From positions 1 through 28,488 of IMG/VR virus record IMGVR_UViG_3300029258_001682: DNA of 28,488 nt. One strand, given 5' to 3'. The position numbers and the translations under genes are program-made. The stretch is from a virus. Positions within the stretch are counted from its first letter, which is position 1, and every line of letters begins with the position of its first letter. The notes below the pieces were generated by a model. It was not told where the DNA came from and ran no database searches. It saw nothing but the letters and a program-made list of their open reading frames with translations. Positions 4,368-28,351 of this stretch are shown here, in pieces.

Positions 4368-4643
4368 CTATCTTCCAGATTTCTTCCCCTTGTATCCAGA
4401 CTGTCCGGGTGCTAATCCTTTCGAACGTGCTATTTTTGCACATATCGCTTCAGCATCTGTGACACCCTTGCAGCATTTCTGAAAAGCCTTTACACAATTA
4501 TCAAACCGCTCTCCGGACTTCCCCTTGAATCTACCTGTTTTTGTATTTTTATAACGATTCATACAGTCCCTGTCACAATTGACCTTTTCTACAAGGAGAA
4601 AAACTGCTTCCATCAAAAAGTCATTTGCTCTTTCAAGGTTCAT
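4368..4643 (-). CDS. Class B tagged small basic protein with Cys-rich motif (putative internal protein)
   Basis: A 91-residue protein. It begins MNLERANDFLMEA, with a putative L-M-E|A cleavage site after residue 12, the same tripeptide found at the predicted processing site of the capsid protein. The body is basic, with Cys at 23, 27, 50, 57, 58 and 68. Residues 47-72 form a helical motif (FDNCVKAFQKCCKGV then DAEAICAKIA). A similar C-V-x-A ... A-x-A-I-C pattern is in the gene at 11032-11433. The end is a glycine-lysine tail. AGGAG lies nine bases before the ATG. Twenty bases covering the tag are identical to the start of the gene at 4655-4999. I infer packaging into the prohead; the molecular role after infection is unknown. 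Confidence 0.75.
   Translation of the reverse strand: MNLERANDFLMEAVFLLVEKVNCDRDCMNRYKNTKTGRFKGKSGERFDNCVKAFQKCCKGVTDAEAICAKIARSKGLAPGQSGYKGKKSGR
4617..4636 (-). repeat. 20-bp direct repeat over class B tag, copy 1
   Basis: The 20 bases, which encode the E-R-A-N-D-F part of the tag, are identical to 4973-4992. The leaders before the two start codons are also similar (AGGAGAYAATA). This suggests duplication of the 5' module between the two genes, whose bodies are not related. Confidence 0.9.
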
Positions 4644-4654
4644 CCTATTGTCTC

Positions 4655-4999
4655 CTATCTTTTCTTAGCCCTTAAGCGTTTTTTTACTATTGCATTATCC
4701 AATATGCGTTCCATCATTCCCAGATAAACATTCTTGTCCATATCCTTTTCACCTATGCCTTCCCATCCTCCTAACTTCTTCATACGTCTGCGATGCGCTT
4801 GAAGTTGTTTACGAATTGTACTCTTAAGCTTATTCAGCTCCTTTGATGATTTCCAAGAAAACCAGTCAATAGCCTCTCTTTGTTTTTTCATGTCCCAGTC
4901 TCTGGGATCTTTACTAGAAAATTTAGACAACAAGTCTTCAGACTCAATTAAAACACTAGCCGTAATCCTGAGAAAGTCATTTGCTCTTTCAATATCCAT
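4655..4999 (-). CDS. Class B tagged helical protein, paralogue of the gene at 5118-5501
   Basis: A 114-residue basic, all-helical protein. The leader MDIERANDFL is nearly the same as in the next gene, and a possible L-I-E|S site lies at residues 17-19. Residues 32-70 (DWDMKKQREAIDWFSW, then SKELNKLKSTIRKQ) align with the gene at 5118-5501 in the order W, Q, (I/V)-(D/N)-W, K-E-L and a basic Q-rich helix, followed in both by GMMERIL or MMGRLL and a basic end. The pair are therefore paralogues with diverged sequence. A good site (AGGAGATAATAAA) precedes the ATG. Small helical proteins with this W...KEL pattern occur in other phages, but I know of no assigned function. Confidence 0.75.
   Translation of the reverse strand: MDIERANDFLRITASVLIESEDLLSKFSSKDPRDWDMKKQREAIDWFSWKSSKELNKLKSTIRKQLQAHRRRMKKLGGWEGIGEKDMDKNVYLGMMERILDNAIVKKRLRAKKR
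4973..4992 (-). repeat. 20-bp direct repeat over class B tag, copy 2
   Basis: Identical to 4617-4636 and in the same place relative to the start codon of its gene. Confidence 0.9.
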
Positions 5000-5118: not shown

Positions 5119-5501
5119 TATGTTTTTACTCTTTTTTTTCTGCCGGTTTTCCTCTTGGATTTCTTTTTGGGTCCAAATTCCCGTTTGTCTACAGCCGCTG
5201 CCAACAATCGACCCATCATATCCATTCTTGCGCCAGCTCTTTCGTCTCTTTCGCTTGGGTTTTTAAATCCACCCGGAGATTTTGAGACTTTCTCATAATG
5301 CTGTCGCATCTGTTGTTTGATTATATCCTGACGTCTTCTAAGTTCTTTTGTTGGCAAACCCGCAAGCCAGTTAACAACCTTTTTCTGTTGAGATTTATTC
5401 CACTTGTCAGCATCCGCTGATAATCCGGGGGGAAGATCCTTTCTCTCGGACAGCTCATCAACAGTATTGCCAAGAACTTCACTTACTTTTTGTAAATCCA
5501 T
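5118..5501 (-). CDS. Class B tagged helical basic protein, paralogue of the gene at 4655-4999
   Basis: A 127-residue protein starting MDLQKVSEVLGNTVDELSE, with a possible L-S-E|R site at residues 17-19. The central helical region has KWNKSQQKKVVNWL, then TKELRRRQDIIKQQ, the same order of W, Q, W and K-E-L as the paralogue downstream. The last 20 residues are almost all K and R. GGGAGG lies upstream of the ATG. The basic tail would suit DNA contact inside the capsid, as with T4 internal proteins, but this is inference. The leader is less typical of class B than its neighbours because N, not E, follows the first V-L-G. Confidence 0.75.
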   Translation of the reverse strand: MDLQKVSEVLGNTVDELSERKDLPPGLSADADKWNKSQQKKVVNWLAGLPTKELRRRQDIIKQQMRQHYEKVSKSPGGFKNPSERDERAGARMDMMGRLLAAAVDKREFGPKKKSKRKTGRKKRVKT

Positions 5502-5516
5502 CTGCCTGTACCTCCC

Positions 5517-6341
5517 TTAGCTGACCTTGACCACTTCAAAGTTTTTATTCTTCTTCAACCTCTGAAGAGTCCCTCTGGTTGTGGAAATCTTAAATACTTT
5601 GTCCTTCATGTTAAATCCAACCCCTCCATACCTTTCGGCCTCTCGCCATAATGCCTCTGGATCACTTGCATGTTTGCCCACAACCTTTGCAACAACATCA
5701 ACAGGCTGAAAATCTTTCGGATTAACAGTTTCCCCCTTTTTGCCAGCCAACAATTTATTAAAATTGGCTACATCTTCCGGATACCTGCGTCCATAATTTT
5801 TAATCCATGTTCGCACGCCTTGAATGATTAAGTCCTCTCCTATCTTTCTATCTATGCGTAATTTATTTTTATAGGGATACGTCATATACGTAATGAATCT
5901 ATCGTTAACATCTGTAACAATAATATGCTTAGGATCGCTAGATGCTCCCATGTAATATTCAGTATTTTTCTGTATTCTGATTCCGCTCTTCAAGGGTTCA
6001 AGCCCCTTGCCCGTTATTGCCATGATCGCTTCATACAGTTTTTCTTCGTTGGTTGCACCCACCTTTTTAACATCACGTGGGGCCACACCCATAGTACCAG
6101 CCTTGTCCCATTTTACATACAGCAATCCACCCCCCGGACCCAGCAGATAATGTGATTTACCTCCCGGTAAAGGAACAGTAGTTACCGTACCTTCTTCACC
6201 TCTTCTGGGAAATTTTTCCTTATGCGGATACATAGCCATGCTCACAACATAAGGATCAAAAACAACACGGGTTCCTACCCGTGGCGTACCCTTGGGAGGT
6301 CTTCGTCCTTCGCTGATATATGTCCTTTTTCGTAAATTCAT
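5517..6341 (-). CDS. Class A tagged protein with SH3-like segment (putative internal protein)
   Basis: The ATG at 6341 is chosen because AGGAGG lies five bases upstream; an in-frame ATG six codons earlier has no such site. The 274-residue product begins MNLRKRTYISEGRRP, with a putative I-S-E|G cleavage after residue 11. The first 29 residues are identical to the second half of the upstream ORF (residues 174-202), within an 88-bp repeat. Residues 22-92 look like an SH3-type beta barrel: G-x-R-V-V-F-D, then RRGEEGTVTTV, then LLYVKWDKAGTMGVAPRDVKKVG. The remainder mixes helix and strand and has no known catalytic motif. I infer a capsid-loaded accessory protein whose barrel could bind nucleic acid or protein. 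Confidence 0.75.
   Translation of the reverse strand: MNLRKRTYISEGRRPPKGTPRVGTRVVFDPYVVSMAMYPHKEKFPRRGEEGTVTTVPLPGGKSHYLLGPGGGLLYVKWDKAGTMGVAPRDVKKVGATNEEKLYEAIMAITGKGLEPLKSGIRIQKNTEYYMGASSDPKHIIVTDVNDRFITYMTYPYKNKLRIDRKIGEDLIIQGVRTWIKNYGRRYPEDVANFNKLLAGKKGETVNPKDFQPVDVVAKVVGKHASDPEALWREAERYGGVGFNMKDKVFKISTTRGTLQRLKKNKNFEVVKVS
6254..6341 (-). repeat. 88-bp direct repeat, copy 1 (class A tag module)
   Basis: The 88 bases match 6733-6820 with a single difference (C here, T there, within the codon run for T-R-V). The repeat runs from the start codon through residue 29 of the encoded protein, so it carries the full tag and the first strand of the following domain. Beyond both ends similarity stops abruptly. 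This indicates a recent duplication or gene conversion limited to the tag-bearing module. Confidence 0.95.
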
Positions 6342-6400
6342 ATCTGCCTCCTGTAACATTTTGTTTTCGATCTTCCTGAATATCCTTCGCCTCGTCTAAC

Positions 6401-7339
6401 TCAATATTTTTCTTTAACATTAAAAGAACGTGGAACTTCCGCAACCATTATCATTCCACCTTGAACAGGTGGCCCCACCTCAATGCTCGCAAGCGAACGT
6501 TCCAAATCCGTTGTAGCAAAAGTTTTACGCAAAACAGAACTAGCCGTTTTTTGGAAATCCTTAACATCAGTACTAGAAATTTCTTTTTTTCCAGTCAACA
6601 AAAAAGAAAATCGAGCAGCACGACCAGAAAAACCAGACAACCTCTTCGCTGGCTTCCACTGGGAAATCTTCAGTCCCATTGTACGAGCCACAGAAGATAC
6701 AGCGTCCTCGACTGCTTTGCTTACAGCATTAAGATCAAAAACAACACGGGTTCCTACTCGTGGCGTACCCTTGGGAGGTCTTCGTCCTTCGCTGATATAT
6801 GTCCTTTTTCGTAAATTCATTTTTTTATCCTCTTTTATTAATGCCTCAGGATGTATATGCCACTTCGCACCACTGCTATCCTTGACTACAGCATGACCCT
6901 GCGGCTTTGCCCATCGTACAAATTGAAAATTGACATTTCCTTTTTTGATTAAATCCTTTTCCACATCAAAAAGACCCTTCACGAGTTTTACCCTCGTTCC
7001 GGGTTTGATCTTTTCAAACTGACGAAACTCTTTGACATGTTCCGGGCCAACATACGGACCACTTTTCCGAAATTGGATGGCCCATCCTTTCTGATATTCA
7101 ATAATCCTGTCAGTTGGAAAATTATGTTCCTTGGCATATGTGCGTGCATCCTGAAATGATGGAAAATAAAAAATGCCCTTGCTGGTCTTTATCTTCTTTG
7201 CCTCGTCCAAATCAGAAATGTCGAGACGTGATACTGATATAGAACGAGGCATATAACCTGTATGCATTCCAACTTTTTTCCTCAATATATCTTTTGCCTT
7301 CATCGCCTCGCTTAAATAATTTCTTTTTCTTAAATTCAT
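6401..7339 (-). CDS. Tandem double-tagged protein: two class A tagged units in one reading frame
   Basis: A 312-residue frame whose N-terminus is MNLRKRNYLSEAM (putative L-S-E|A cut after residue 11). At residue 174 a second complete tag begins, MNLRKRTYISEGRRP, preceded by its own site (AGAGGAT, seven bases before the internal ATG at 6820). Unit 1 (residues 1-173) contains a segment of a type seen in other phages: FYFPSFQDARTYAKEHNFPT, then DRIIEYQKGWAIQFRKSGPY, followed by a K-P-G-T-R-V-K-L-V beta segment. Unit 2 (174-312) shares 29 residues with the next gene, then diverges into a domain of unknown type. No stop separates the units. The frame may make a fusion, an independent second protein, or both; proteolysis at the second tag would also separate them. 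Confidence 0.75.
   Translation of the reverse strand: MNLRKRNYLSEAMKAKDILRKKVGMHTGYMPRSISVSRLDISDLDEAKKIKTSKGIFYFPSFQDARTYAKEHNFPTDRIIEYQKGWAIQFRKSGPYVGPEHVKEFRQFEKIKPGTRVKLVKGLFDVEKDLIKKGNVNFQFVRWAKPQGHAVVKDSSGAKWHIHPEALIKEDKKMNLRKRTYISEGRRPPKGTPRVGTRVVFDLNAVSKAVEDAVSSVARTMGLKISQWKPAKRLSGFSGRAARFSFLLTGKKEISSTDVKDFQKTASSVLRKTFATTDLERSLASIEVGPPVQGGMIMVAEVPRSFNVKEKY
6733..6820 (-). repeat. 88-bp direct repeat, copy 2 (internal class A tag)
   Basis: This copy starts at the internal ATG (6820) of the double-tagged frame and matches 6254-6341 at 87 of 88 positions. The ribosome sites ahead of the two copies differ (AGAGGATAAAAAA here, AGGAGGCAGAT there), so the duplication boundary is at the start codon. 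Confidence 0.95.
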
Positions 7340-7348
7340 TTTTGCCTC

Positions 7349-7822
7349 CTATAGCATCTTGTAAAGCTCTCTTCTTATCTTGCTGGCCTCCGCTCGGATG
7401 CCGTGTCGTTTTATTCTTATGGCCTGCGTTCTCCATAGATAATTCGTTTTCGGGAGATACAACCTCCGCGCCCATACCTTTCCCAGCTTGATCGCATCTT
7501 CCGGACTCAGATCCGGTTCTGCATGCATTATGGCTATCATGATCATCGACAATATCCAGTCATCCAGATTGTCAAACTCGGTTATCCTCTTGTGCTTCTC
7601 GGGAGCCTCCTCGGGAGCCTGAGGGACCCCTGAAGGCTCTAGTTCTCCAGACCTATCTCTGCCGATCAACCCTGTGGAACGCCCTGTGAACCCGCTTTTC
7701 GTAGCTCTCGCTGGCCTTCTGACCAAATCCTTTGGTCTCCCACGGGTATCTACGTTTCTACGCTCAGAAATTTCAGTATTCCTGAACAAATCGGAAAGTA
7801 TATCTTTGGCCGTTTCTGCCAC
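7349..7822 (-). CDS. Hypothetical protein with disordered basic N-terminal half
   Basis: A 157-residue protein with a probable GTG start, AGGTAGGG lying four bases upstream. Residues 15-80 are rich in R, G, P and E (RGRPKDLVRRPARATKSG) and probably disordered. Residues 82-157 are helical, with a hydrophobic stretch DDWILSMIMIAIMHAE and then LSPEDAIKLGKVWARRLYLP, and the end is basic. The hydrophobic segment contains charged flanks and looks like a buried helix rather than a membrane span. It sits between the gp14-like region and the double-tagged gene and has no obvious L-x-E tag. Function unknown. Confidence 0.65.
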   Translation of the reverse strand: MAETAKDILSDLFRNTEISERRNVDTRGRPKDLVRRPARATKSGFTGRSTGLIGRDRSGELEPSGVPQAPEEAPEKHKRITEFDNLDDWILSMIMIAIMHAEPDLSPEDAIKLGKVWARRLYLPKTNYLWRTQAIRIKRHGIRAEASKIRRELYKML

Positions 7823-7828
7823 TTTACC

Positions 7829-8158
7829 CTACCTGCCTTTTAACGGTATTCCCGTAACCTTCTTAAGTAACTCCCATGCTTTCTTCCACTGCTTCTTTTC
7901 CAGATACTTATCCATCAGCTTCTCTTGCTTTGGGGTTGCAACCTTCATGAATTTCATCATCTCTACAAATCCGAGATTGCCGACGTATACGGCCTCCACC
8001 ACAACAACCTTTTTGATTGCCGCAAGAGCTGTCACACACTGGTGAATATTCTTGCCGCTTAACAGCGTTTTCACGAGCGGTTCCTCCCGGTTAACAGTAA
8101 GGACAGCCTCGTGCTTGGCTTGATGGTAGCCAGTATTCTTATTTTTCATTTTGCACAT
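7829..8158 (-). CDS. Hypothetical small protein downstream of gp14-like gene
   Basis: A 109-residue basic protein whose ATG overlaps the upstream stop (TAATG), so it is translationally coupled to the neck candidate. It may start three codons later at a second Met. Residues 40-75 contain alternating hydrophobics (IHQCVTALAAIKKVVVVEAV), followed by two lysine-rich helices (PKQEKLMDKYLEKKQWKKAW). No tag, signal peptide or known motif. The coupling suggests a role with the preceding structural protein, but I cannot name one. Confidence 0.6.
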   Translation of the reverse strand: MCKMKNKNTGYHQAKHEAVLTVNREEPLVKTLLSGKNIHQCVTALAAIKKVVVVEAVYVGNLGFVEMMKFMKVATPKQEKLMDKYLEKKQWKKAWELLKKVTGIPLKGR

Positions 8159-8646
8159 TAAAGTCCTACATCCAGCATAAGACTCTCAGGTGGAGTCTTG
8201 GTTCTTCTTACTACATCCAGCATCCACATTGACGTCGTGGGTGCATCATTAGGAACTCCTTCCTTATGAAAATTCGTAACATCGAAATACAAATTCCATA
8301 CATAGATAATATCCCCTATTCTGGGATCTCTCAAATCTCTGTCCCTTAAATCCTTGTCCGCAATCCAGACCTTAGATATTTTATCAACCCGGTAACCTTC
8401 TTCTCCTGCAACAGGAGTTCGATCCGGTAACTCGAAAAACAACGGACATTTTATCCCATAAGTTCCTTGTGCGTTCCTCTTATATTCTGTCTGCATTGGT
8501 TCTGCATATAATGGATGAACCTGAGACTCCTCTTCGTTTAACTGGAAGATTATAGCATCTTCCTCGTTTACCCCGGAAAGCCGTATAACTTCCTGAGCAA
8601 CAGAATCAAACAGGCATTTGTCTCCATCTCCAATCAGACAACCCAT
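8158..8646 (-). CDS. Putative neck protein (gp14-like) or head-tail connector
   Basis: A 162-residue protein. It begins with a helical segment (CLFDSVAQEVIRLSG), then has QLNEEESQVHPLYAEP, which recalls the D-x-L-Y-G-E element of gp14-type neck proteins and other connectors. Strands follow around residues 60-125 (IGDIIYVWNLYFDVTNF), and the end is W-x-L-D-V-V-R. AGGGG lies seven bases before the ATG. gp14 in T4 forms part of the neck collar between portal and tail; the T4 protein is longer (about 256 residues). The assignment is by motif resemblance and by presence of a gp13-like gene in the same block; a different connector is possible. Confidence 0.45.
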   Translation of the reverse strand: MGCLIGDGDKCLFDSVAQEVIRLSGVNEEDAIIFQLNEEESQVHPLYAEPMQTEYKRNAQGTYGIKCPLFFELPDRTPVAGEEGYRVDKISKVWIADKDLRDRDLRDPRIGDIIYVWNLYFDVTNFHKEGVPNDAPTTSMWMLDVVRRTKTPPESLMLDVGL

Positions 8647-8656
8647 CTACATACCC

Positions 8657-8902
8657 CTACTTGAAAATAGACTCTGCAATATCGATCAAACCCTCTAATG
8701 CTTCCCTCAACATCGGATTGAGATCCTTGCACTGTCCAGCCTGTGCCCTTGGACCTGTCCGTGGACGTCTTGCCGGTCCTCCCCTTCCAAGGCCACGGCC
8801 CATTCCACGTCCATATCCTCTTCCTGCCGGAGGAATTCCAAGCCGCCCTGTATAATCATCGCTACTCTTCGCCCTCGTTTTTTTTACTTTCTTCTTTGCC
8901 AT
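8657..8902 (-). CDS. Small basic RG-rich protein
   Basis: An 81-residue protein with three parts: a lysine-rich start (MAKKKVKKTRAK), a glycine-arginine region with repeated GRG/GRGM steps at residues 25-52, and a C-terminal helix (NPMLREALEGLIDIAESIFK). RG-rich segments bind RNA or DNA in many proteins, and the positive charge suits packaging with genomic DNA. The I-A-E|S at the C-terminal end matches the protease signature but would remove only four residues, so it may be chance. It lies between a tagged gene and the gp14 candidate. Function unknown. Confidence 0.65.
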   Translation of the reverse strand: MAKKKVKKTRAKSSDDYTGRLGIPPAGRGYGRGMGRGLGRGGPARRPRTGPRAQAGQCKDLNPMLREALEGLIDIAESIFK

Positions 8903-8903
8903 T

Positions 8904-9389
8904 TTACCCTGCTCCTATTGATTTGAGTCTGACCTGTTCCTTCTCTTTTTTCTTTCTTCTTTGAATACCCATCAGATAATCGTAAGCGCGTTCTTTCCTG
9001 CGCCTTACGGATGATGGTTCTCTTACATGCTTTACATTCCGCTTTAATCCTTTACCTGTAAGCCTGAAATTTCCAGTAGGCTGTCCCGTAGCATATCCAT
9101 ATTTTTTGAGCATCCACTGGGCTATCAACTGTCCACCTTTGACCGCGCCCTTGAACCCCTCTCCTCTTTTTCTCAAATTATTATATATTGCCCTAACTGC
9201 ATGCTTATAAAACACACTCTGCTTTGCAGGTCTCGGAGAATGTGCAGCAACAGTCCTGCGTCTTTTTTGTTGCGCCTTCTGATAAGGAGTAAGCTTTGAC
9301 TTCCTTGCTTCTGAAAGCACTTCACTCCCATCCATAAATCGACATATAGATTCCAAGAGCAATGTCGAATCTGTTAAAAAATCACTCAC
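8904..9389 (-). CDS. Very basic protein with possible class B-like leader
   Basis: A 161-residue protein, most probably starting at the GTG at 9389, though no strong ribosome site is visible; a later ATG at residue 19 is an alternative. The leader contains GSEVLSE|ARKS, a fitting L-S-E|A site at about residues 25-27. After it the protein is strongly basic: KAQQKRRRTVAAHSPRP, an FYKHAVRAIYNNLRKRG helix, then K/R-rich segments to the end. The processed form would be a small DNA-binding-like protein. The longer leader is unusual compared with other tags, which supports a start later in the frame. Confidence 0.6.
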   Translation of the reverse strand: MSDFLTDSTLLLESICRFMDGSEVLSEARKSKLTPYQKAQQKRRRTVAAHSPRPAKQSVFYKHAVRAIYNNLRKRGEGFKGAVKGGQLIAQWMLKKYGYATGQPTGNFRLTGKGLKRNVKHVREPSSVRRRKERAYDYLMGIQRRKKKEKEQVRLKSIGAG

Positions 9390-9396
9390 TGTCTGA

Positions 9397-9483
9397 CTAT
9401 GCCTCTCTTGCTTTTTCTGCTGTCTCTACCGATCTTGATACTTTTGGCCTTCCCATAGGTTTCTGCTGGGATGCCCATGTCAT
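9397..9483 (-). CDS. Possible 28-residue small protein
   Basis: An ATG directly after the upstream stop (TAG-ATG) opens 28 codons: MTWASQQKPMGRPKVSRSVE then TAEKAREA. There is an AGGAT three bases from the start, too close to be optimal, so coupling would be needed. The 94-base gap it fills is otherwise unexplained and has no stop in this frame. The G-R-P-K and helical end are compatible with a small basic protein. It is short enough to occur by chance, hence low confidence. Confidence 0.35.
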   Translation of the reverse strand: MTWASQQKPMGRPKVSRSVETAEKAREA

Positions 9484-9882
9484 CTATCCTACAACATCTT
9501 CTACTACAGCTTCATACGAATTATTCGGCCCTATTACGAAAATAGCAGATCTTGTTCGTCCTTCATTTGTTACTGACGCATTTATATTATTCACATAAAA
9601 ATCTCTGTCCCTGCGATTGATATTTACCTTCCAGCTAAAAGTATCTTTCTTTATTTTTCCTCTACCAGATGCAGATGCATCATATGCACCTGCATATGAT
9701 CTTGCCCTGTCTTTATTATCATTTGCCGCAACAAAATATTCCGGCAAAGCCGCAGTGATACTCTTTATGATTTTTTTGTAAAAACTATATACAGCACGCT
9801 GTATAGAACCTTCCGAAGGTTTGCCATTCCTATTCATTGCAATCTTGGCTTCGTTTATATAACCCCTTTTTCTCAGTTTCAT
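9484..9882 (-). CDS. Class A tagged protein (putative internal protein)
   Basis: A 132-residue protein starting MKLRKRGYINEAKIA, with a putative I-N-E|A cut after residue 11. AAGGAG precedes the ATG. After the tag come a helix (SIQRAVYSFYKKIIKSITAA) and beta strands (DTFSWKVNINRRDRDFYVNN), ending EAVVEDVVG. The codons for L-R-K-R differ from those of other class A genes (CTG AGA AAA AGG here, TTA CGA AAA AGG at 6341), so the peptide, not just DNA, is conserved. Body function is unknown. Confidence 0.75.
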   Translation of the reverse strand: MKLRKRGYINEAKIAMNRNGKPSEGSIQRAVYSFYKKIIKSITAALPEYFVAANDNKDRARSYAGAYDASASGRGKIKKDTFSWKVNINRRDRDFYVNNINASVTNEGRTRSAIFVIGPNNSYEAVVEDVVG

Positions 9883-9892
9883 GACTCTCTCC

Positions 9893-10285
9893 TTATTTTC
9901 CTTTCGACATGAACCACTGTTTTGCCATTTTTACAGCTTCATCCCTTTCGCTGTCATCATTCTTGTAAACCAGAACAATATCTTTATCCGCATGCTCCAT
10001 CGAAGAATCTTTGTAATTGATAAACACTCCGTAACATGAACTCTTCACAGACAATGCAATGGACACATACCATTCACAATCCAACCCACCCGTTGTACAG
10101 CCTTCCCCTGCTGCCGTTGCCAATGTTGATGTCTCCCAGCACCTGAACTTCTTGGACATAAACTTTGATGGTATACCATTTACGATTCTTTCTATTATAT
10201 CCTTGCACACATTAATCAAATTAGCAGTTTTGCTACCCGCCTTTGCGGCCTCAGAACCTTTTTCCCATTTGAACTTCAAATTCAT
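9893..10285 (-). CDS. Hypothetical protein within tagged-gene cluster
   Basis: A 130-residue protein with ATG one base after the upstream stop. The start MNLKFKWEKGSEAAKAGS shares M-N-L with the tag families but lacks an L-x-E site. The middle has strands separated by glycine (GLDCEWYVSIALSV, then CYGVFINYKDSS) and the end is a helix (ERDEAVKMAKQWF). Six cysteines are scattered rather than in zinc-like pairs. It resembles the gene at 9484-9882 in layout (N-terminal helix, then strands), so the two could be distant relatives, but I cannot show this by motif. Confidence 0.6.
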   Translation of the reverse strand: MNLKFKWEKGSEAAKAGSKTANLINVCKDIIERIVNGIPSKFMSKKFRCWETSTLATAAGEGCTTGGLDCEWYVSIALSVKSSCYGVFINYKDSSMEHADKDIVLVYKNDDSERDEAVKMAKQWFMSKGK

Positions 10286-10286
10286 T

Positions 10287-10508
10287 CTAATCTTCTGCCC
10301 CGCTGTAGTCTCTTCTCAAACCAAACGGCATTCTAGTCCTTAACGGTCTCTGTACCTTCTTTTTCTCCAACTTCCCTTTTTTCTTCATCTTTAGCCTTTT
10401 CCTTGATCGAACATCCAATCCATATTCATCCGGATCGTTCTCGTCCACATCCAGACGTAATTCATTCAGGGCTTTTCCAAGTGAGAAATTGACTTCTGAC
10501 AAGTTCAC
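10287..10508 (-). CDS. Small basic protein with possible class B-like leader, GTG start
   Basis: I choose the GTG at 10508: it overlaps the upstream stop as GTGA and has AGGAG nine bases upstream. A GTG two codons earlier is too close to that site. The 73-residue product starts MNLSEVNFSLGKALNELR, with L-N-E|L at residues 14-16 as a possible cleavage site. An acidic stretch (DVDENDPDEYG) follows, then a K/R-rich segment (RSRKRLKMKKKGKLEKKK) and GLRRDY near the end. It looks like a small DNA-binding internal protein, but no family is recognised. Confidence 0.6.
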   Translation of the reverse strand: MNLSEVNFSLGKALNELRLDVDENDPDEYGLDVRSRKRLKMKKKGKLEKKKVQRPLRTRMPFGLRRDYSGAED

Positions 10509-11029
10509 TTCCACTGTCTCCTCACTTCTTTGATCGCGTGTTTTTTTATAACCCTAGAGTCTTCTCGCATTTCTTGATTTTTGATTTTTATATATTCCTT
10601 TATGGCATAGTCCACAGCACCCTTAGCATCTCGCTTTGAATAAAACCTTCCCTCGTTCACAGCCATTGTAATCACTTCATTAAGCATGGACTCCTGAGAT
10701 GGATCTAACTGCCCTGCAAAGAACTTCTTGATAGAACGTGCTTCGCCTCTGCTTTCTTTTACATACCCAGCAGGAACCTTTTCCAAACTGTCCCATCTGT
10801 ACTTCTCTCCGCTTACACGCAATTCTGTTGAATCAAGTGTCCCGAGACTCACAGTACGACCTGCCCTTAACAGCCGTAGAAGACCGATCAGCTTAGGCAT
10901 GGGGTTGCCGTAATCATGCACAATAGTATTAGCAACAGCTTCAGCGTCTTTTCCGTATTTATATATCTGCCATAGAATTGCACCGCCTTTTTGTTCCATC
11001 AGGGAATAACCTCTTTTGCGTAAATTCAT
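10505..11029 (-). CDS. Class A tagged protein, 174 residues (putative internal protein)
   Basis: It begins MNLRKRGYSLMEQKGG, one residue longer than other class A tags, so that L-M-E|Q falls at residues 10-12. L-M-E is also the predicted processing tripeptide of the capsid protein. The leader AGAGGATTAAAA is almost the same as the one ahead of the internal tag at 6820. The body is helical, with a segment AEAVANTIVHDYGNPMPKL and a basic end (AIKEVRRQWK). It overlaps the following gene by four bases. No enzymatic motif is seen; I infer capsid targeting from the tag only. Confidence 0.75.
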   Translation of the reverse strand: MNLRKRGYSLMEQKGGAILWQIYKYGKDAEAVANTIVHDYGNPMPKLIGLLRLLRAGRTVSLGTLDSTELRVSGEKYRWDSLEKVPAGYVKESRGEARSIKKFFAGQLDPSQESMLNEVITMAVNEGRFYSKRDAKGAVDYAIKEYIKIKNQEMREDSRVIKKHAIKEVRRQWK

Positions 11030-11031
11030 TT

Positions 11032-11433
11032 TTAATCCTCTTTCTTTCTGGCTTGCTTAAGTAGCTTTTCATATTCGGCCACCTTGTTAGAATGACCTTT
11101 TTGAGCAGCTTTCGACTTGCTCCGCTTCTTTCCCTTTGCTGTTACACTCTGTGTTCCCGGCTCAAGGTATCCGCCCTTCTGCAATTGAGCAGTACAAATT
11201 GCGAATGCCTTGCTTACGTCACCACCATATTGTTTTGCCACTGCCCTCACACATCGTTTGAGCACAACGGGGGTCCTCTTTTTTCTGGCTTCAAATATAT
11301 CTGCCAGATTTACATATGGACTTCCGTCATTGAGTGTGCGCAAAAAAGGAATATAGCGTGGATTCACTTTCCTTCCGCCTTGCTTAATCATTGTCGGATA
11401 CGGATGCATCCAGAGCTGCCATTCATTTATCAT
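11032..11433 (-). CDS. Small basic protein with C-V-x-A...A-I-C motif
   Basis: A 133-residue protein, ATG at 11433 with a weak GTAGG upstream. Residues 59-85 read KRCVRAVAKQYGGDVSKAFA then ICTAQL: a short two-helix motif framed by Cys 61 and Cys 80 that is common in small phage proteins and also present at 4368-4643. The N-terminus (W-x-L-W-M-H-P-Y) and the P-R-Y-I-P-F-L-R segment look like part of a virion or connector-type protein. The end is lysine-rich (KKRSKSKAAQKGHSNK). There is no class A or B tag. Function unknown. Confidence 0.65.
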   Translation of the reverse strand: MINEWQLWMHPYPTMIKQGGRKVNPRYIPFLRTLNDGSPYVNLADIFEARKKRTPVVLKRCVRAVAKQYGGDVSKAFAICTAQLQKGGYLEPGTQSVTAKGKKRSKSKAAQKGHSNKVAEYEKLLKQARKKED

Positions 11434-11466
11434 TGTTCAAAGCCTACTTTCTAGTTGTTCCTTGTT

Positions 11467-11520
11467 TTACATACGATTGATACATAGCAAAGTCTCCATT
11501 AAACTTGTCCTTAATGACAT
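11467..11520 (-). pseudogene. Decayed class A tag copy (17-codon remnant)
   Basis: The leader and start (TATATAGGAGACGAAA then ATGTCATTAAGGACAAG) copy those of the gene at 11530-11919 (TATATAGGAGATGAAAA then ATGTCATTAAGGAAAAG) with only a few changes. The frame then reads MSLRTSLMETLLCINRM and stops. L-M-E|T is still visible, but most of the basic tag and any body are lost. A different frame stays open to 11444 (ending QSYVKQGTTRK), which suggests a frameshifted remnant rather than random sequence. It may still be translated because the ribosome site is intact. Confidence 0.45.
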
Positions 11521-11536
11521 TTTCGTCTCCTATATA
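11505..11536 (-). repeat. Leader-plus-tag repeat, decayed copy
   Basis: These 32 bases match 11904-11936 apart from two substitutions and one missing base. They hold the ribosome site, start codon and first tag codons. The two copies are about 400 bases apart, which equals one gene length, as expected from a tandem duplication followed by loss of one body. Confidence 0.8.
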
Positions 11537-11919
11537 AAGTCTCTTCTGTTCGGGCTTTCATCTGTAGAATATTTCCTTATTGCTTTAACTAACTTCATTA
11601 CTTTATCTTTATCGCCCTCAATACCAATATACCCTGCATACCCCTTGTCTGGAGTCCTGTTAAGATAAGCACCATGTTCACCTGTCAAAGGATTAGCTGC
11701 CGTAACAATCACCAATCCCGGAACTGTCCAATGAAAATCTTTTATAACAGTAGGTTTCTCCTGACCGGGAATATCATGTTTCTTGGTCTTCACCCTCATC
11801 TTCAACTTGAACCGATCAACAATCTTCTTCCAGTTTGCAGCAGAATCAAAATCTGTAAGATCGAATCCCCATTTAATCTTCTTTTCTTCTGCCAAATAAC
11901 TTCTTTTCCTTAATGACAT
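11530..11919 (-). CDS. Class A tagged protein with conserved phage domain ending RDFI (putative internal protein)
   Basis: A 129-residue protein starting MSLRKRSYLAEEKKIK, with L-A-E|E at residues 9-11. The remainder is a compact alpha/beta domain: FHWTVPGLVIVTAANPLTGE, then AGYIGIEGDKDKVMKLVKAI and the C-terminal SPNRRDFI. Small phage proteins with a G-Y-x-x-Y-I-G-I-x-G strand, a V-K helix and a terminal R-x-F-I are widespread, but their function is not known to me. AGGAG precedes the start. A decayed copy of its leader and tag follows directly downstream. Confidence 0.75.
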   Translation of the reverse strand: MSLRKRSYLAEEKKIKWGFDLTDFDSAANWKKIVDRFKLKMRVKTKKHDIPGQEKPTVIKDFHWTVPGLVIVTAANPLTGEHGAYLNRTPDKGYAGYIGIEGDKDKVMKLVKAIRKYSTDESPNRRDFI

Positions 11920-11936
11920 TTTTCATCTCCTATATA
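11904..11936 (-). repeat. Leader-plus-tag repeat, intact copy
   Basis: Contains the ribosome site, ATG and first tag codons of the gene at 11530-11919; the decayed counterpart is at 11505-11536. Confidence 0.8.
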
Positions 11937-12175
11937 TTAGGATTTACTCCCTGCAACATTACCAAATATTTCGGAAACTTTATATATTCCGTACCTTCCG
12001 TTCCCGGCCTAAAATATATACCGGGGAAACTCCGCATGATCATCCATGAATCCTTATGTGGATGTCTCTCCCATACTGTATACATCTTATCCCTATCAGC
12101 TTTTTTGGGATCCGTAAGCGCACCTTTAGGTGCTCTCCTTTTACCCTCATGCAGATAATATCTTTTTCTCAGCAT
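11930..12175 (-). CDS. Class A tagged small protein (putative internal protein)
   Basis: An 81-residue protein starting MLRKRYYLHEGKRRAPKG. It lacks the second residue of other class A tags, so L-H-E|G falls at residues 8-10; the K-R-R-x-P-K-G that follows resembles the G-R-R-P-P-K-G after the tag at 6341. The body is a short beta-rich segment with aromatic residues (MYTVWERHPHKDSWMIM, then GIYFRPGTEG). The ribosome site is weak (TAGAG). It probably represents a shortened relative of the SH3-like tagged proteins, although I cannot show homology beyond the first 20 residues. Confidence 0.7.
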   Translation of the reverse strand: MLRKRYYLHEGKRRAPKGALTDPKKADRDKMYTVWERHPHKDSWMIMRSFPGIYFRPGTEGTEYIKFPKYLVMLQGVNPNI

Positions 12176-12184
12176 TGCATTTCT

Positions 12185-12601
12185 CTACGATATTCCCAGA
12201 ACAAGCAACCAGCTCGGAGAACCATCAGGACCAAATCCATCCGGCTCCACTCTTTTTCCAGTCGGAGTTGTTGCCACTCCCGAGTCAATCATCTTTTCAA
12301 CCCTTCCCATGCTAGGAGGCTTGCCAAATCCGCTTATTGTTTTATGCAAAATTATAATCGGATACTTTACGGGTTTCATCATATAATTACGTCCGCTTTT
12401 TCCGGTATAATCAGGATGCAGATAACAAGCCGTCTCCCCAGCAGAATTCTTTTTGCCTAAAAACTTTACTTCCACGGACGTTCCTTTTGGTATTGCATCT
12501 CCATTCTTTAATTTCAGATCACGAATAAACTTACGCCTCACGGACTCTTCAATGTTACCGACAACCTCTTTATGGGTTTCTCTTATCTGTTCAATTCTCA
12601 T
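12185..12601 (-). CDS. Class B tagged protein with conserved GPDGSPSWLL domain (putative internal protein)
   Basis: A 138-residue protein starting MRIEQIRETHKEVVGNIEES, with a possible I-E-E|S site at residues 17-19. The body has a conserved pattern: strands (GTSVEVKFLG), SGFGKPPSMGRVEKMIDSGV and then GKRVEPDGFGPDGSPSWLLV near the end. I have seen this P-D-G-x-x-P-D-G-S-P-S-W-L-L ending in other phage proteins but cannot give it a function. No catalytic residues stand out. It lies between a class A gene and another class B gene. Confidence 0.75.
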   Translation of the reverse strand: MRIEQIRETHKEVVGNIEESVRRKFIRDLKLKNGDAIPKGTSVEVKFLGKKNSAGETACYLHPDYTGKSGRNYMMKPVKYPIIILHKTISGFGKPPSMGRVEKMIDSGVATTPTGKRVEPDGFGPDGSPSWLLVLGIS

Positions 12602-12609: not shown

Positions 12610-12975
12610 CTATCCACGGGCATATGCAGACCCGAAAAGCTTTTTGGCAATAGCTTTGCCCTTCTTTGTAAGAGCCACATAATCCCTTGCAGGATTAGAT
12701 ATATGCCACTCTACATCTGCAAGCTTATTTTTCTTTAATTCCAGCTTGCCTTCATGACTGCCAAGCTGGCCATGGTATTTCTTAGAACTAGTCGCCAGAT
12801 CGTTAAACAATCCCCTAGCATCTCTCGAAAGCCCATCATAAAGCTTCAACTGATCAGGAGTAAGTTTTGCTTTGTTTTTCTTATCCTTAGGAGAAAGTTT
12901 AATATCTTCTGTTAACAGATTTCCAAGTTCTCCAATCACCTCACTCAAAACTTCGTTCGCTTCTTTTATATCCAT
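12610..12975 (-). CDS. Class B tagged protein with possible winged-helix end (putative internal protein)
   Basis: A 121-residue protein starting MDIKEANEVLSEVIGELGN, with L-S-E|V at residues 10-12 and more candidate sites (I-G-E, L-T-E) just after. The middle is charged and helical (TPDQLKLYDGLSRDARGLF). The end, WHISNPARDYVALTKKGKAI then AKKLFG, resembles the last strand and helix of winged-helix DNA-binding domains, where an L-T-x-K-G-K element is typical. If correct, the packaged protein could bind host or phage DNA soon after injection. The winged-helix reading is tentative. Confidence 0.7.
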   Translation of the reverse strand: MDIKEANEVLSEVIGELGNLLTEDIKLSPKDKKNKAKLTPDQLKLYDGLSRDARGLFNDLATSSKKYHGQLGSHEGKLELKKNKLADVEWHISNPARDYVALTKKGKAIAKKLFGSAYARG

Positions 12976-13556: not shown

Positions 13557-14300
13557 TTAGTAAACCATCGGCATAACAGCCGATCTCCCAAGCACTTCCT
13601 GCCTTAATCGTTCTTTGTCCGCAATGCTCTCTTGAATCAGATCGTCACCGTCCAAGGTACGTTCTCCACCTGCTGCCGGTAATCCCTTGTACTTGCCCCT
13701 TATCCTTCCAAGCATGTACTTGGCTTCTGCCAATGCCCATTCTCGTATTAAATACAAGTCTCTCTCCTGATAATGCTTCAGCTTAATATCCTCAGGATCT
13801 ATTCTGTACATATACACAGCATCTCCACCTTCCTTTACAGGTGGCATCAACCTCAATATTCTAGTCTTGGGGTCAGTCGTGTTATCAGAATAAAATTCCC
13901 AGTCATTATCAAAGCTCAAAATTTTCTGTGATCCTTCGATAGTAATAAGACTCTGAACAATAGTACCTTGAGGATACTGTCCATACACATTCATCCCATA
14001 CGGTATTCCATGTACATCCAGAAATCCGGGGTAAATCTCCCTGAAATCAATCCACGCAACCTGCTTCGGAAACCATACTTTTACAATTTTATCTATTCCG
14101 GGCGTAACCCCCGACATATCGTATTCAGCCTGATCTACAACAAGGGACAACGTTGCTTCTTTGAACAATCCGAAATAGCTATTCCACCAGTCCTTCGCAT
14201 TGTCCAAAGCGAATTTCAACTGAGTCTCCGAAAGCTCTACCTTTACGCAGTCGGCCCCCAGCATTGCTCTGGCCCATTGCTTGAATTCATTGATATTCAT
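13557..14300 (-). CDS. 13: Neck protein, gp13-like
   Basis: A 247-residue protein with the outline of gp13-type neck proteins: an N-terminal helix pair (FKQWARAMLGADCVKVELSE, then TQLKFALDNAKDWWNSYFGL), a strand with V-V-D-Q-A-E-Y-D-M, D-K-I-V-K-V-W-F, a central beta domain, the R-I-D-P-E-D segment and a C-terminal helical part with AEAKYMLGRIRGKYKGL, GG and an acidic helix. In T4-like phages gp13 joins gp14 to seal the portal after packaging and form the neck on which the tail docks. T4 gp13 is longer (about 309 residues). The match is by layout and local motifs; no residue is diagnostic. Confidence 0.6.
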   Translation of the reverse strand: MNINEFKQWARAMLGADCVKVELSETQLKFALDNAKDWWNSYFGLFKEATLSLVVDQAEYDMSGVTPGIDKIVKVWFPKQVAWIDFREIYPGFLDVHGIPYGMNVYGQYPQGTIVQSLITIEGSQKILSFDNDWEFYSDNTTDPKTRILRLMPPVKEGGDAVYMYRIDPEDIKLKHYQERDLYLIREWALAEAKYMLGRIRGKYKGLPAAGGERTLDGDDLIQESIADKERLRQEVLGRSAVMPMVY

Positions 14301-15709: not shown

Positions 15710-16252
15710 TTATGCTTTGTCTATTTGTTCTTCCATGCATTTATGTCCAAACATGGCAATCAAATCATCCAGTGAATTGTCACTTATCTTTTCACACCAT
15801 TCCACCTTGCCCTTGTGCTTGATAAAATAAGCTTCAATCTCACTCTGAATAGCGTCGTCCATTTTCCCCCAGTCTTCTCTGGCCGTTGCCTTGGCCAAAC
15901 CAAGGTACTTCACAAGCTTCTTCCTCACTTTAAAAGGAAGTAATCCCCACCATTCGCTTACCTTGCTCTCGACAAGATCACGGTCCTCTTCGATGACTTT
16001 TTCCCTTAATGTCTTCTTGATCCACTCTGACATATCTTCGCTTTCGGGAGAGCAACTTTCGTTCAAATACTTAGATATTTTCATCACATTTACGCGATAA
16101 TTTTTGAGATCTGTTCTCATCAGCTCAGAGGCGGACTGCATTGTCTTTGCATATAAAGCATCCTTACCCTTTACCAAAAGAATATACTCATACCCCTTTT
16201 TCTGCATCTTGCGAGCAACTTCTTTTTCCTTCATTTTATTGAGATCTTTCAT
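15710..16252 (-). CDS. Helical hypothetical protein downstream of the capsid-region terminator
   Basis: A 180-residue charged, largely helical protein. The start codon lies a few bases after the U-run of the terminator at 16265-16320, with AGGAG four bases upstream. Segments include EYILLVKGKDALYAKTMQ, WGLLPFKVRKKLVKYLG and a final acidic helix. An L-N-E|S at residues 63-65 matches the protease signature but is internal and may be chance. The position means the gene is expressed by terminator read-through or from an unseen upstream promoter. Function unknown. Confidence 0.6.
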   Translation of the reverse strand: MKDLNKMKEKEVARKMQKKGYEYILLVKGKDALYAKTMQSASELMRTDLKNYRVNVMKISKYLNESCSPESEDMSEWIKKTLREKVIEEDRDLVESKVSEWWGLLPFKVRKKLVKYLGLAKATAREDWGKMDDAIQSEIEAYFIKHKGKVEWCEKISDNSLDDLIAMFGHKCMEEQIDKA

Positions 16253-16976: not shown

Positions 16977-18467
16977 TTACGGAGTATTGGTTACCGTAAT
17001 CACTCCGTAGAAGTCCTTGTTCACGAGCTTCGAGAAGTACCGTGTTCTCAGACCCTTCCTCAGTGTCCAGTCTGCCGGATCAAGGAAGGTTCCTGTCATC
17101 TCCAGAGGCACATACGGTGAATAAACAACACCGGCGTCCACGAAAGACGGTCCCTTCAGTCCTACGAGGATCTTCCCAGCAGTGAAGAACGGATCGATTA
17201 TGACCGTCCACTTGTGCTGGAGAGTACCCATCACGAATACACCGTATCCGCTGGGAGCTGTCGGGAGTGTAAACGCAGGACGTCCCGTAACACCCTGTCC
17301 CTGTGGAGTAGGCGGAGGTGTGAACACCCTCGCAAGGTCTCCATGGGTTTCCAGTGCTCCGAAGATCGGCTGTACATCCGGACCCGTGATTATGAAGTTA
17401 CCGGGACCCCTGTGGAGCCTCCTGTTGATCTCTCCGCTTACCTTCTCCAGAGTGGTCATGATATTGCGGTAATGATCAACCTGATTCCTTCCGGCAGGAA
17501 CTGCCGCATCAAAAGTGTCCAGATTGGTCGTACCGGAATTATACATCTTCCTGATGATTTCACGGTCCTTGCCCAGAGTAATCTGGTTTGCAAGTCCACC
17601 TGTCAGCTCAGGCTCAATGTCCATTCCAAGAACTGCCCTCATGTCATCGACAACCTCAGAACTCCACAGACCCTTCAACTTCCTACTGTAAACTTTTATG
17701 GCTTCCAGTGTGACGTCAATATTGACCTGCGGAACGTTATTTGACTGACCTTCCATTGAGAAGAAGTAGTACGCCTTCACTGCGGTAACATTCGCGCTGA
17801 ACGTGATGTTGTAGTTACCGTTGGCATATACAACAGTTGATCCTGCGCCTACGTCACCTGTCAGTGTCCCGCTTCCATCTCCGTCGTAAATGGTCAGCGT
17901 GTTACCACCTACATCCGTTCCTTCGAACCTGACACCTATCTGTCCAACCCCGTAAGGCTTAACAGGAGACCATGCAAGTGCACCCACAAAATTTGCTGCC
18001 GGTCCCGCTCCGATTGCCTCACCATGCACCTCTTCCGAGCTGTAGGTATCATCGAAGTTGGCGATCATCTCGTCGCCAGCAGTAACGGTTCCCTTGGTTG
18101 TGCCATACAGCCATTTCCAGTAGAAAATGCCTCCAACCGGAGATGTCGTAGGCTGTACTGATGCAAGGTTGTTCGCAATCAGATTCGGCCATACCCTCCT
18201 GATAACCGGGAAGATAAACTTCACGAGATCAGGAACAGCAGAGCTGTACGTTGATTCCATGAGCGCAGGCTTGTTCATCATACGAGAAAGAGAAACCATC
18301 TGATTCTCGTAAATCTGGGCCATGCACTTCTTCGTCCAGTCACCATCGACGCCTGTCAGCATATCATCCCACTTCTCCATGAGCTGCTGGCTACGCATCT
18401 CATCGAATACACCGGGCATGCCCTGAGCATCGTTCTTTTCAATAAGATCTCTTGCTTCTCCGAACAT
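16977..18467 (-). CDS. 23: Major capsid protein, gp23-like
   Basis: A 496-residue protein with clear similarity to T4-type gp23. The N-terminal arm is followed by NQMVSLSRMMNKPALMES, then FIFPVIRRVWPNLIANNLAS and VQPTTSPVGGIFYWKWLYG, the usual conserved core start (R-R-x-x-P-N-L-I-A, V-Q-P-x-x-x-P-x-G). L-M-E at residues 69-71 stands where gp23 is cut in T4 (after residue 65), so cleavage before S72 would give a 425-residue mature subunit. Further conserved stretches near the end include PADWTLRKGLRTRYF. AGGAGG lies six bases from the ATG. It sits after the protease-scaffold gene and before the decoration gene. This is a very confident call. Confidence 0.95.
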   Translation of the reverse strand: MFGEARDLIEKNDAQGMPGVFDEMRSQQLMEKWDDMLTGVDGDWTKKCMAQIYENQMVSLSRMMNKPALMESTYSSAVPDLVKFIFPVIRRVWPNLIANNLASVQPTTSPVGGIFYWKWLYGTTKGTVTAGDEMIANFDDTYSSEEVHGEAIGAGPAANFVGALAWSPVKPYGVGQIGVRFEGTDVGGNTLTIYDGDGSGTLTGDVGAGSTVVYANGNYNITFSANVTAVKAYYFFSMEGQSNNVPQVNIDVTLEAIKVYSRKLKGLWSSEVVDDMRAVLGMDIEPELTGGLANQITLGKDREIIRKMYNSGTTNLDTFDAAVPAGRNQVDHYRNIMTTLEKVSGEINRRLHRGPGNFIITGPDVQPIFGALETHGDLARVFTPPPTPQGQGVTGRPAFTLPTAPSGYGVFVMGTLQHKWTVIIDPFFTAGKILVGLKGPSFVDAGVVYSPYVPLEMTGTFLDPADWTLRKGLRTRYFSKLVNKDFYGVITVTNTP

Positions 18468-18498
18468 GTCTGTTCCTCCTTACTTTTAAATCCTCAGG

Positions 18499-19419
18499 CT
18501 AAAGATTAGCCAGCTCCTTTGTTGAAACCCCGAATATCTTCTTGTCTTCATTGATAATGTCTTCCGCATCATCGTCTGAATCTTCATCCAGATAATTGCG
18601 AATGTCATCATACTCGTCTGACGTGGGGTTTTCCCTGTCGAACGCAACAACAAATTCGTCTATTTCTTTCTTGGTATCGAAATTTGCCTCGTTCAGATAC
18701 TCACGCAGTTCTGTGCGTCTCGGGTGATCAGCAAGTCTCTTTTCGATATACGCCTTGACCCCAAACTGCTTACTAAGTCCAAGGGCCTTATCCCTTTCGG
18801 ACTCAAGCTTCACATTCTCCTGCCTCAGTTTGCGAATTTCTTCCTCGTACTCTTCATGAGCTTCGTCCTCTTCGGACAATGCTTCCTGAATTTCCGAGAT
18901 CCTGTCCTTCAGTTCTTCCAGAGAGTCAAACTGCTTCACATCGCCTACCATGCCCTCAATCTGGGTACGTCTTTCGTCATCTCCCAGACTCTTTTCCATG
19001 TGCAACTTGAACAGTGCTTCTTTCGCAATCTCTGCAAGCTCTTCGTTCTCATCTTCAAGACGGCTTATTTCTTCATCCGCCTCAGCGAGTTTGCGATTAG
19101 CATTTTCAAGTTTTTTCTTCTGGTCGGCAACAAGCCTGTCCTCATCCTCTGACAGAACAAAAGGAGCAACCACATCGACGATCCTTTTCATGGCAGTTGC
19201 GCTCCCTGCCACTTCGGGATCTTCGAGCAGTCTCTTGCGCTCTTCCTCACGAGCCTCATTCTTGATGTCCTCGGCACTCTCAAGCAACTTGGCTTCGAAC
19301 TCTTCGCGCAATGCTTCCCTTGCATGCTCACGAGCTTCTGGCTCAACTTCTCTCTTAAGCTCTTCCATAATGCCCTTGACCACTTCGGGATGCTTCTCTC
19401 TCAGCTCCTTAAGTGTCAT
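18499..19419 (-). CDS. 22: Scaffold protein from internal start (gp22-like, nested)
   Basis: Within the fusion, AAGGAG (19434-19429) lies nine bases before the in-frame ATG at 19419 (residue 195), giving MTLKELREKHPEVVKG and 306 residues in all. The site is stronger than the one before the full-length start at 20001. The product is highly charged with long helical stretches, the right composition and length for a gp22-type scaffold (T4 gp22 is about 269 residues). Nested scaffolds inside protease genes are known in other phages, such as lambda C and Nu3. This would give much more scaffold than protease, as assembly requires. Confidence 0.75.
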   Translation of the reverse strand: MTLKELREKHPEVVKGIMEELKREVEPEAREHAREALREEFEAKLLESAEDIKNEAREEERKRLLEDPEVAGSATAMKRIVDVVAPFVLSEDEDRLVADQKKKLENANRKLAEADEEISRLEDENEELAEIAKEALFKLHMEKSLGDDERRTQIEGMVGDVKQFDSLEELKDRISEIQEALSEEDEAHEEYEEEIRKLRQENVKLESERDKALGLSKQFGVKAYIEKRLADHPRRTELREYLNEANFDTKKEIDEFVVAFDRENPTSDEYDDIRNYLDEDSDDDAEDIINEDKKIFGVSTKELANL

Positions 19420-20001: not shown

Positions 20002-20006
20002 TTTAC

Positions 20007-21058: not shown

Positions 21059-21072
21059 TTTCTCCGTACCTC

Positions 21073-21984: not shown

Positions 21985-22018
21985 ATTTCCTCTCCTCTAA
22001 ACAGGACGTTACAGTCCT

Positions 22019-22047
22019 ATTAACGTATTTAATATAGAATGTGTCAA
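22019..22047 (-). promoter_or_regulatory. Promoter-like sequence between portal and head-core genes
   Basis: The 124-base gap (21985-22108) is the longest non-coding stretch of the window and is AT-rich. On the minus strand TTGACA (22047-22042) is followed after 17 bases by GTTAAT (22024-22019), four of six matches to the bacterial -10. The TTGACA is perfect, and the AT-rich bases before it could act as an UP element. A 5-bp hairpin (AGGAC/GTCCT) lies just downstream. It is well placed to drive the core-protease-capsid set. No T4-late TATAAATA was seen here. Confidence 0.45.
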
Positions 22048-22108
22048 ATTTTCATATATTTTATATGTAATTCCATATTAATTTTACTTCCAGTATACTT
22101 CCAATACC

Positions 22109-28330: not shown

Positions 28331-28351
28331 CTTATCCTCCATTTATTTTTC

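Follow-up and report, generated by a model that had tools for sequence, protein, structure and literature searches.

Exchangeable N-terminal tags as candidate capsid-targeting propeptides on small basic proteins of uncultured T4-like phages

Record IMGVR_UViG_3300029258_001682 of the IMG/VR database, analysed here over its full 28,488 bases (the window), belongs to an uncultured T4-like bacterial virus whose genes lie on the minus strand and include a head module of the T4-like type (gp20, a gp21-type S77 protease and gp23). Numerous small genes without family matches sit among and beyond the conserved head genes, and we found that many of them open with one of a few short N-terminal tags that end in [LI]xE. 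These tags are, with high probability, capsid-targeting propeptides of T4-type head assembly, cut by the S77 protease and carried by cargo proteins. Cleavage, targeting and packaging are what we infer for them, and injection of the bodies is the least certain part of this reading.

Results

Class A tags in the window

An earlier note on this DNA had pointed to a removable-looking N-terminus of the form M-x-L-R-K-R-x-Y-(L/I)-x-E on seven unrelated small proteins. All of its positions were confirmed on the minus strand (starts 12175, 11919, 11029, 9882, 7339, 6820 and 6341; Table 1), each at the start of an open reading frame (ORF) or at an internal ATG. The underlying LRKRxY pattern (YTNMGNAARMGNNNNTAY) matched the window seven times, against a mean of 0.14 and a maximum of 2 in 100 dinucleotide shuffles, and a stricter ATG...[LI]xE pattern matched five times against 0.00 expected. 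There are indeed seven tags, but only six ORFs bear them, the 6820 tag lying inside ORF 6401-7339; a GAGG-like ribosome site stands upstream of its ATG, and it may be an internal start or the relic of a fusion. The proposed form describes most of the tags, although the one at 12175 lacks the residue after Met and the one at 11029 has an additional residue (Y-S-L-M-E).

The bodies behind the tags are generally unrelated, as had been claimed, with one exception: in the 6820 and 6341 copies the duplication runs on for another 26 residues (GRRPPKGTPRVGTRVVFD...), after which the two sequences diverge. Likewise, codons vary among the tagged genes (TTA or CTG for Leu; CGA, CGC, AGA or AGG for Arg), whereas these two tags are identical in DNA; the pair is a recent duplicate. 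The gene called 5517-6359 most likely begins at 6341, because AGGAGG precedes the ATG there.

Recurrence in relatives and spacing of the cut motif

Relatives were retrieved from IMG/VR with alignments of the protease and of the capsid proteins of the clade, both of which were required: a single-sequence scan of IMG/VR with the capsid protein gave no match. About ten closely related contigs were obtained, including G001 (142 kb), G018 (78 kb), G015 (48 kb), G008, G002, G014, G016 and G017. Class A tags occurred on many different bodies in seven further contigs (G001, G002, G008, G014, G015, G016 and G018). A scoring matrix that covers the seven positions following the initial Met, and so leaves out the cut columns, detected 27 ATG-anchored class A tags. 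Of these, [LIVM]xE stood exactly at the predicted end in 23 and within four residues of it in 26; against a background of 2.1% per position, this gives a binomial p of 6e-35, which counts related sequences as independent and is indicative only. The exact DNA pattern M[NK]LRKRxY[LI]xE hit no other IMG/VR contig, because relatives mostly have LRRR, LRHR, LRQR or a different second residue.

The earlier note had held that the tags should accompany this type of protease, and in the contigs examined they recur solely in this gp23/S77 head-gene clade. No class A tag was found in the outgroup records G004 and G019. Huge phage LR756511 and SP-15-like phages are head-gene relatives; no such tag was present in the LR756511 stretch, and a regular expression found none in the fetched SP-15 and LIS04 stretches, which were not surveyed by eye. 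A capsid-protein scan of genome contigs revealed no host or prophage. Outgroup G004 (L016 17064-19952) has a tag of its own, MSKI..GL.FIR....L[FI]E, on adjacent genes with differing bodies. Large N-terminal clusters in the GC-rich G019 were set aside as looking like composition artefacts (50 edges, against 45 in the control).

Two further tag classes and tag swaps

An unbiased comparison of the N-termini of G018 exposed a second tag of 19 residues, MxLxxVNxLLxxTVxxLxE (class B), which four window genes carry (starts 12975, 5501, 4999 and 4643) and which is likewise spread over different bodies in the relatives. Here [LIVM]xE fell exactly at residue 19 in 9/13 detections (p 6e-13 against the 2.1% background, with related sequences counted as independent). 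A looser class C (IEQIRxIxxEVLGE) was seen at window starts 12601, 25235, 27141, 27664 and 28342. Classes B and C, together with the tag swaps and polyproteins described below, go beyond what the earlier note had read.

Orthologous bodies exchange their tags. Window gene 27668-28342 has a class C end (...VIGREIAE/GKMPKV, the slash marking the predicted cut) where its ortholog G008 16305 has class B (...TVASLTE/GKMPKV), the same exchange separates window gene 12185-12601 from G018 44595, and another body bears class A in G001 52137 and G015 25719 and class B in G002 7746. Further cases are listed in Table 1. Tags and bodies are, by this comparison, separate modules. As a side observation, the WQLW protein of G018 (L219:17146-18276) and of G014 (L198:10542-11645) is fused to a second domain after LSE/A or LYE/A; this domain contains ILDGHHR and is ParB-like in appearance.

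The swaps bear on whether the shared N-termini are simply duplication relics copied ahead of unrelated frames with no targeting role. The 6820/6341 pair is clearly a recent duplicate and fits that account, but the remaining tags keep the peptide despite differing codons, the cut motif is kept with a variable P2, tag classes are swapped on orthologs with the junction retained, and adjacent genes of G004 carry a tag of another kind that ends in [LI]FE. We therefore regard duplication without function as a very improbable origin of the tags.

The cut motif matches the capsid protein

The window genes and their orthologs were surveyed in 20 groups, which yielded nine columns with an invariant Glu at P1, a hydrophobic residue at P3 and variation at P2. 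Among these, P2 was most variable where the SKLTPYQ body begins (six kinds in six sequences) and at the WQLW body (five in seven), the SWW body (four in nine), the capsid protein and the adaptor. In the clade's major capsid protein the column lies at residue 71, where P2 was of six kinds in eleven sequences and LxE was invariably followed by S or A, and the adaptor (13557-14300) has a conserved [IL]xE/S at residue 224, near its C-terminus, with five kinds of P2 in seven sequences, which may be a C-terminal processing site. The motif is evidently under selection as a site, and the combination of fixed P3 and P1 with a free P2 matches the specificity reported for gp21, L/I-x-E (PMC9026906).

The [LI]xE/ at the tag ends matches the invariant LxE/[SA] of the capsid protein, and some capsid segments ahead of the cut (e.g., LKRRFLTE/A and LKQKYLSE/S) resemble, by eye, the class A LRKRxYLxE/. 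A class A-tagged protein of 65-72 residues (L220:12345-12542, the same as G018 51345; L185:17192-17410 in G002) also has a start that aligns weakly around the capsid cut of G016 (E 7e-5).

Removable propeptides are favoured over shared domains because the cut motif is exact at the tag ends, the tags swap on orthologs, and conserved head proteins, the capsid protein among them, keep P3 and P1 constant around a changing P2. A host-directed signal for localisation or degradation, or a chaperone-binding peptide unconnected with the capsid protease, would also be short, basic-hydrophobic and N-terminal, and the sequence of the tag alone is compatible with a cellular receptor. Such a signal would not be expected to end in the L-x-E of the capsid maturation site, to recur within frames at module borders, or to be confined, among the contigs examined, to one gp23/S77 clade, and we give it very little credence.

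The tagged bodies

The tagged bodies are strongly basic and mostly orphans, in both respects like the internal proteins of T4, with net charges per residue of +0.08 and +0.10 compared with +0.007 for other genes (p 2e-12). Downstream of the portal gene, BLASTP homologs in the first set of relatives were found for 0/11 tagged window genes and 20/25 untagged ones; when G018 and G015 were added, five tagged genes gained homologs. Family matches comprised DUF3175 on a class B pair (E 4e-12) and a weak zinc-ribbon-like match on one body of G016. T4 packages Alt, an ADP-ribosyltransferase. A tagged protein of G001 (22335) gave a subthreshold match to an ADP-ribosyltransferase family (ART-PolyVal, E 0.023); its AlphaFold model has a pLDDT (predicted local distance difference test) of 41 and a sequence search of PDB returned no match, so that the assignment is weakly suggested and a lead only. 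In G015, reverse complement 27489-30716 (L222/L223) holds an ORF of 1,075 residues with two HExGH zinc-peptidase-like motifs, a weak Peptidase_Mx match (E 0.0018) and, inside the frame at residue 969, a class A tag.

These features have to be weighed against another role within the head, in which the tagged proteins would be components of the prohead core (scaffold), anchored by the tag and cut, with fragments that leave or help to condense the DNA, as with gp67 and gp68 of T4. The majority of tagged genes do lie inside the head module, their bodies are small and basic, and some LxE-bearing bodies (WQLW, SKLTPYQ) are conserved clade-wide, as structural parts should be. Core parts would, however, be expected to be conserved, which agrees poorly with the scarcity of homologs of the tagged genes in the first relatives (five after the addition of G018 and G015), and some bodies match non-structural families, namely DUF3175 and, weakly, ADP-ribosyltransferase. 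A core role is thus the less probable of the two, at roughly one chance in four.

Table 1. Tagged genes, predicted cuts, head genes and candidate polyproteins. Coordinates are those of the window unless a contig is named; a slash marks the predicted cut.
Feature	Coordinates	Strand	Remarks
Class A tag MLRKRYYLHE/ on gene 11930-12175	12146..12175	-	G018 ortholog has MNLRRRGYLQE/ (46% identity, E 1e-18)
Class A tag MSLRKRSYLAE/ on gene 11530-11919	11887..11919	-	
Class A tag MNLRKRGYSLME/ on gene 10505-11029	10994..11029	-	One residue longer
Class A tag MKLRKRGYINE/ on gene 9484-9882	9850..9882	-	
Class A tag MNLRKRNYLSE/ opening ORF 6401-7339	7307..7339	-	
Internal class A tag MNLRKRTYISE/ of ORF 6401-7339	6788..6820	-	Residue 174; stands where the G018 polyprotein has an EDVELDE linker
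Class A tag MNLRKRTYISE/ on gene 5517-6341	6309..6341	-	DNA identical to the 6820 tag
Tagged cargo body	5517..6341	-	G018 43606-44217, with class B at its N-terminus, is the ortholog of the C-terminal part (42%, E 1.5e-31)
Probable multi-part cargo ORF	6401..7339	-	Cuts predicted from sequence: LSE/A (residue 11), LDE/A (46), ISE/G (184)
Class B tag MDIKEANEVLSEVIGELGNLLTE/ on gene 12610-12975	12907..12975	-	Body is an EDVEL-flanked module in the G015 polyprotein (52%, E 2e-21)
Class B tag MDLQKVSEVLGNTVDELSE/	5445..5501	-	19 residues
Class B tag MDIERANDFLRITASVLIE/	4943..4999	-	19 residues
Class B tag MNLERANDFLMEAVFLLVE/	4587..4643	-	19 residues
Class C tag MRIEQIRETHKEVVGNIEE/ on gene 12185-12601	12545..12601	-	G018 ortholog has class B MSVEWVNGMLNEAIAELAE/ (50%, E 2e-50)
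Class C tag ...SNIEQVREIAHDVIGREIAE/GKMPKV on gene 27668-28342	28268..28342	-	G008 ortholog has class B MSVRRINEVLSETVASLTE/GKMPKV (50%, E 9e-34)
MINE/ ahead of conserved WQLWMHPYP body	11422..11433	-	Class A-like MSLRQRGHLEE/ there in G008; P3 I/L/F, P1 E fixed, P2 5 kinds/7
Variable N-terminus of 27 residues ending VLSE/, ahead of conserved SKLTPYQKAQ body	9309..9389	-	P3 L, P1 E fixed, P2 6 kinds/6
Portal protein gp20, intein-interrupted	22109..24835	-	Portal_T4 E 4.7e-68
Prohead protease, gp21 type, long scaffold-like C-terminal region	18499..20001	-	Peptidase_S77 (Pfam) E 3.4e-13; PHROG head maturation protease E 1.5e-41
Major capsid protein gp23	16977..18467	-	E 1.6e-58; predicted maturation cut ALME/S at residue 71
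Head-region protein	15710..16252	-	Predicted cut DLVE/S at residue 95; P3 L/I, P1 E fixed in 9/9
Ad2-type adaptor	13557..14300	-	E 1e-12
Candidate polyprotein	G018 17530-22515 (L218/L219)		1,661 residues, 10 strict linker matches
Candidate polyprotein	G015 35397-38675 (L222; reverse-complement coordinates)		1,092 residues, 6 strict linker matches
Candidate polyprotein	G001 48492-51674 (L178)		1,060 residues, 9 strict linker matches

Candidate polyproteins

Three long ORFs of the relatives are built of segments about 40-280 residues long, most of them unrelated, with EDVELDE/[AG] or a variant of it between them; each ORF has far more strict linker matches than the 0.008 at most expected from shuffles (Table 1). 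Two such linkers occur in a fourth contig, L309 (2281-3564), the one useful new contig from a search of IMG/VR with the EDVELDE DNA pattern; among the matches listed, most were single and probably due to chance. Module order is shuffled between phages, with segments 3, 5, 6 and 8 of G001 corresponding to segments 5, 8, 4 and 2 of G015.

Two window bodies recur as modules of these long proteins, one being gene 12610-12975 (in G015) and the other lying within ORF 6401-7339, in which residues 103-168 correspond to one G018 polyprotein module (71%, E 6e-32); after this shared module, the internal class A tag replaces the next G018 linker. Several distinct modules per polypeptide are seen in the relatives and are approached in the window by ORF 6401-7339 alone. 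The occurrence of the two window bodies in both settings suggests that linker, N-terminal tag and internal tag are forms of one processing element.

The long ORFs would then be cargo polyproteins, each frame holding as many as about 18 small proteins, unrelated for the most part, that the capsid protease releases inside the prohead, with tagged genes and modules as interchangeable formats of one shuffled repertoire delivered to the host; we hold this to be an even bet. Its main competitor, somewhat less probable, is that the EDVELDE segments are flexible acidic spacers and the long proteins act intact as multidomain (polyvalent) proteins, given that phages are known to encode polyvalent proteins of 2-15 domains, some of which are packaged in one piece (PMC5512222). 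In 21/25 strict matches, however, the spacer has [LIM]-x-E at its end and A or G as the next residue, two of the same modules are encoded by single tagged genes of the window, and the order of modules differs between phages.

A 682-residue hypothetical protein of Caulobacter phage Cr30 (AGS80949.1; L356:4759-6807) has five copies of ESE..[LM].E, where shuffles give an expectation of 0.02. It resembles the candidate polyproteins in having a repeat between segments of one protein and differs in the linker sequence; it may be a polyprotein, in which case cultured T4-like phages may share the arrangement. Proteins of cyanophages S-SKS1 and P-TIM68 share a DE[LIV]SKGT[LM]G.Y[VI][RK]KA-like segment.

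The head module

The gp21-like protease that the earlier note had proposed was borne out by its family matches (Table 1) and by its His89 and Ser144/145, which are invariant in a small alignment (n=4). The intein in the portal gene of the window has HNH-like and NUMOD3 parts, and the portal ORF of G001, at 1,465 residues, probably holds more than one insert.

Discussion

The capsid-targeting interpretation, first put forward in the earlier note, is supported by a genuine S77 protease, a tag cut that matches the capsid site, exchangeable tags, basic bodies and the confinement of the tags to one clade. Several points weigh against it. Four detections in each of classes A and B do not have the cut motif at the exact spacing, P1' of class A is not small in every case, and class C is a loose group. 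The significance tests take related sequences as independent, and the training sets of the scoring matrices include many of the detected sequences (cut columns excluded). Few of the bodies have family matches that would indicate a function, and one body of G001 (63067) is without the class A tag that its orthologs in G002 and G018 have. We found no cultured tag-bearing relative and no virion proteomics for any member of the clade.

If the tags are propeptides, a small basic protein would be made with an N-terminal peptide of 11 (class A) or 19 (class B) residues, which would bind the prohead core and so bring tagged proteins and polyproteins inside. The S77 protease, active once the prohead has closed, would cut after [LI]xE, discarding the tags and dividing the polyproteins, and the basic bodies would stay with the packaged DNA, probably to be delivered into the next host cell. 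With bodies that are accessory and traded between phages, the tag would serve as a standard loading address.

In T4, propeptides of 10-19 residues on basic internal proteins are cut at L/I-x-E, and in T-even relatives further basic proteins carry similar sequences (PMC9026906). The capsid-targeting sequence (CTS) of T4, carried by IPI-III and Alt and cut by gp21, shares with the tags described here a short N-terminal propeptide ending in L/I-x-E ahead of basic, variable bodies, in a phage that encodes gp20, an S77 protease and gp23 and whose capsid protein also has the tag's cut motif. Both have an aromatic residue four before the cut, which is Phe in T4 and Tyr here; an aromatic-[LI]-x-E end alone is, by eye, common to them. 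The present system differs in its LRKRxY or 19-residue helix-like tags, in having many more tagged genes per phage, in two classes that exchange on orthologous bodies and in the related polyproteins. As far as the sequences go, the T4 CTS is the nearest known system, and the one described here is a variant of it with new tags and candidate polyproteins.

In the giant phages phiKZ and SPN3US, head and ejected proteins are cut after Glu by a distant gp21 homolog, and the diverged paralogs gp53 and gp54 of that system have identical N-termini (PMC5694885). Cutting after Glu and shared N-termini on differing proteins are thus common to both; several giant-phage propeptides, however, exceed 100 residues and the motif is A-x-E (SPN3US), whereas here the tags have 11 or 19 residues and end in [LI]-x-E. 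Polyvalent proteins, known from phages and conjugative elements, resemble the candidate polyproteins in being long, multi-module, phage-encoded and predicted to be delivered, and DdrB of P1 is processed prior to packaging (PMC5512222). Of the known polyvalent domains (ART, MPTase, ParB-like and others), the weak ART-PolyVal and Peptidase_Mx matches given above were the ones seen. The candidate polyproteins differ from them in the repeated capsid-protease-like site between modules and in the occurrence of the same modules as single tagged genes. A search of open-access papers turned up no account of cargo polyproteins in phages.

If this interpretation is right, tag and cut motif together would form an address, readable from sequence, for the head-packaged proteins of an uncultured T4-like phage group, and candidate injected proteins for host takeover or anti-defence could be listed from genomes alone. 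The tag swaps show the loading signal evolving as a module independent of its cargo, and both tag classes are candidate loading tags for bringing foreign proteins into capsids. Cargo polyproteins processed by the capsid protease, if real, would be a strategy not expected of a phage with a DNA genome.

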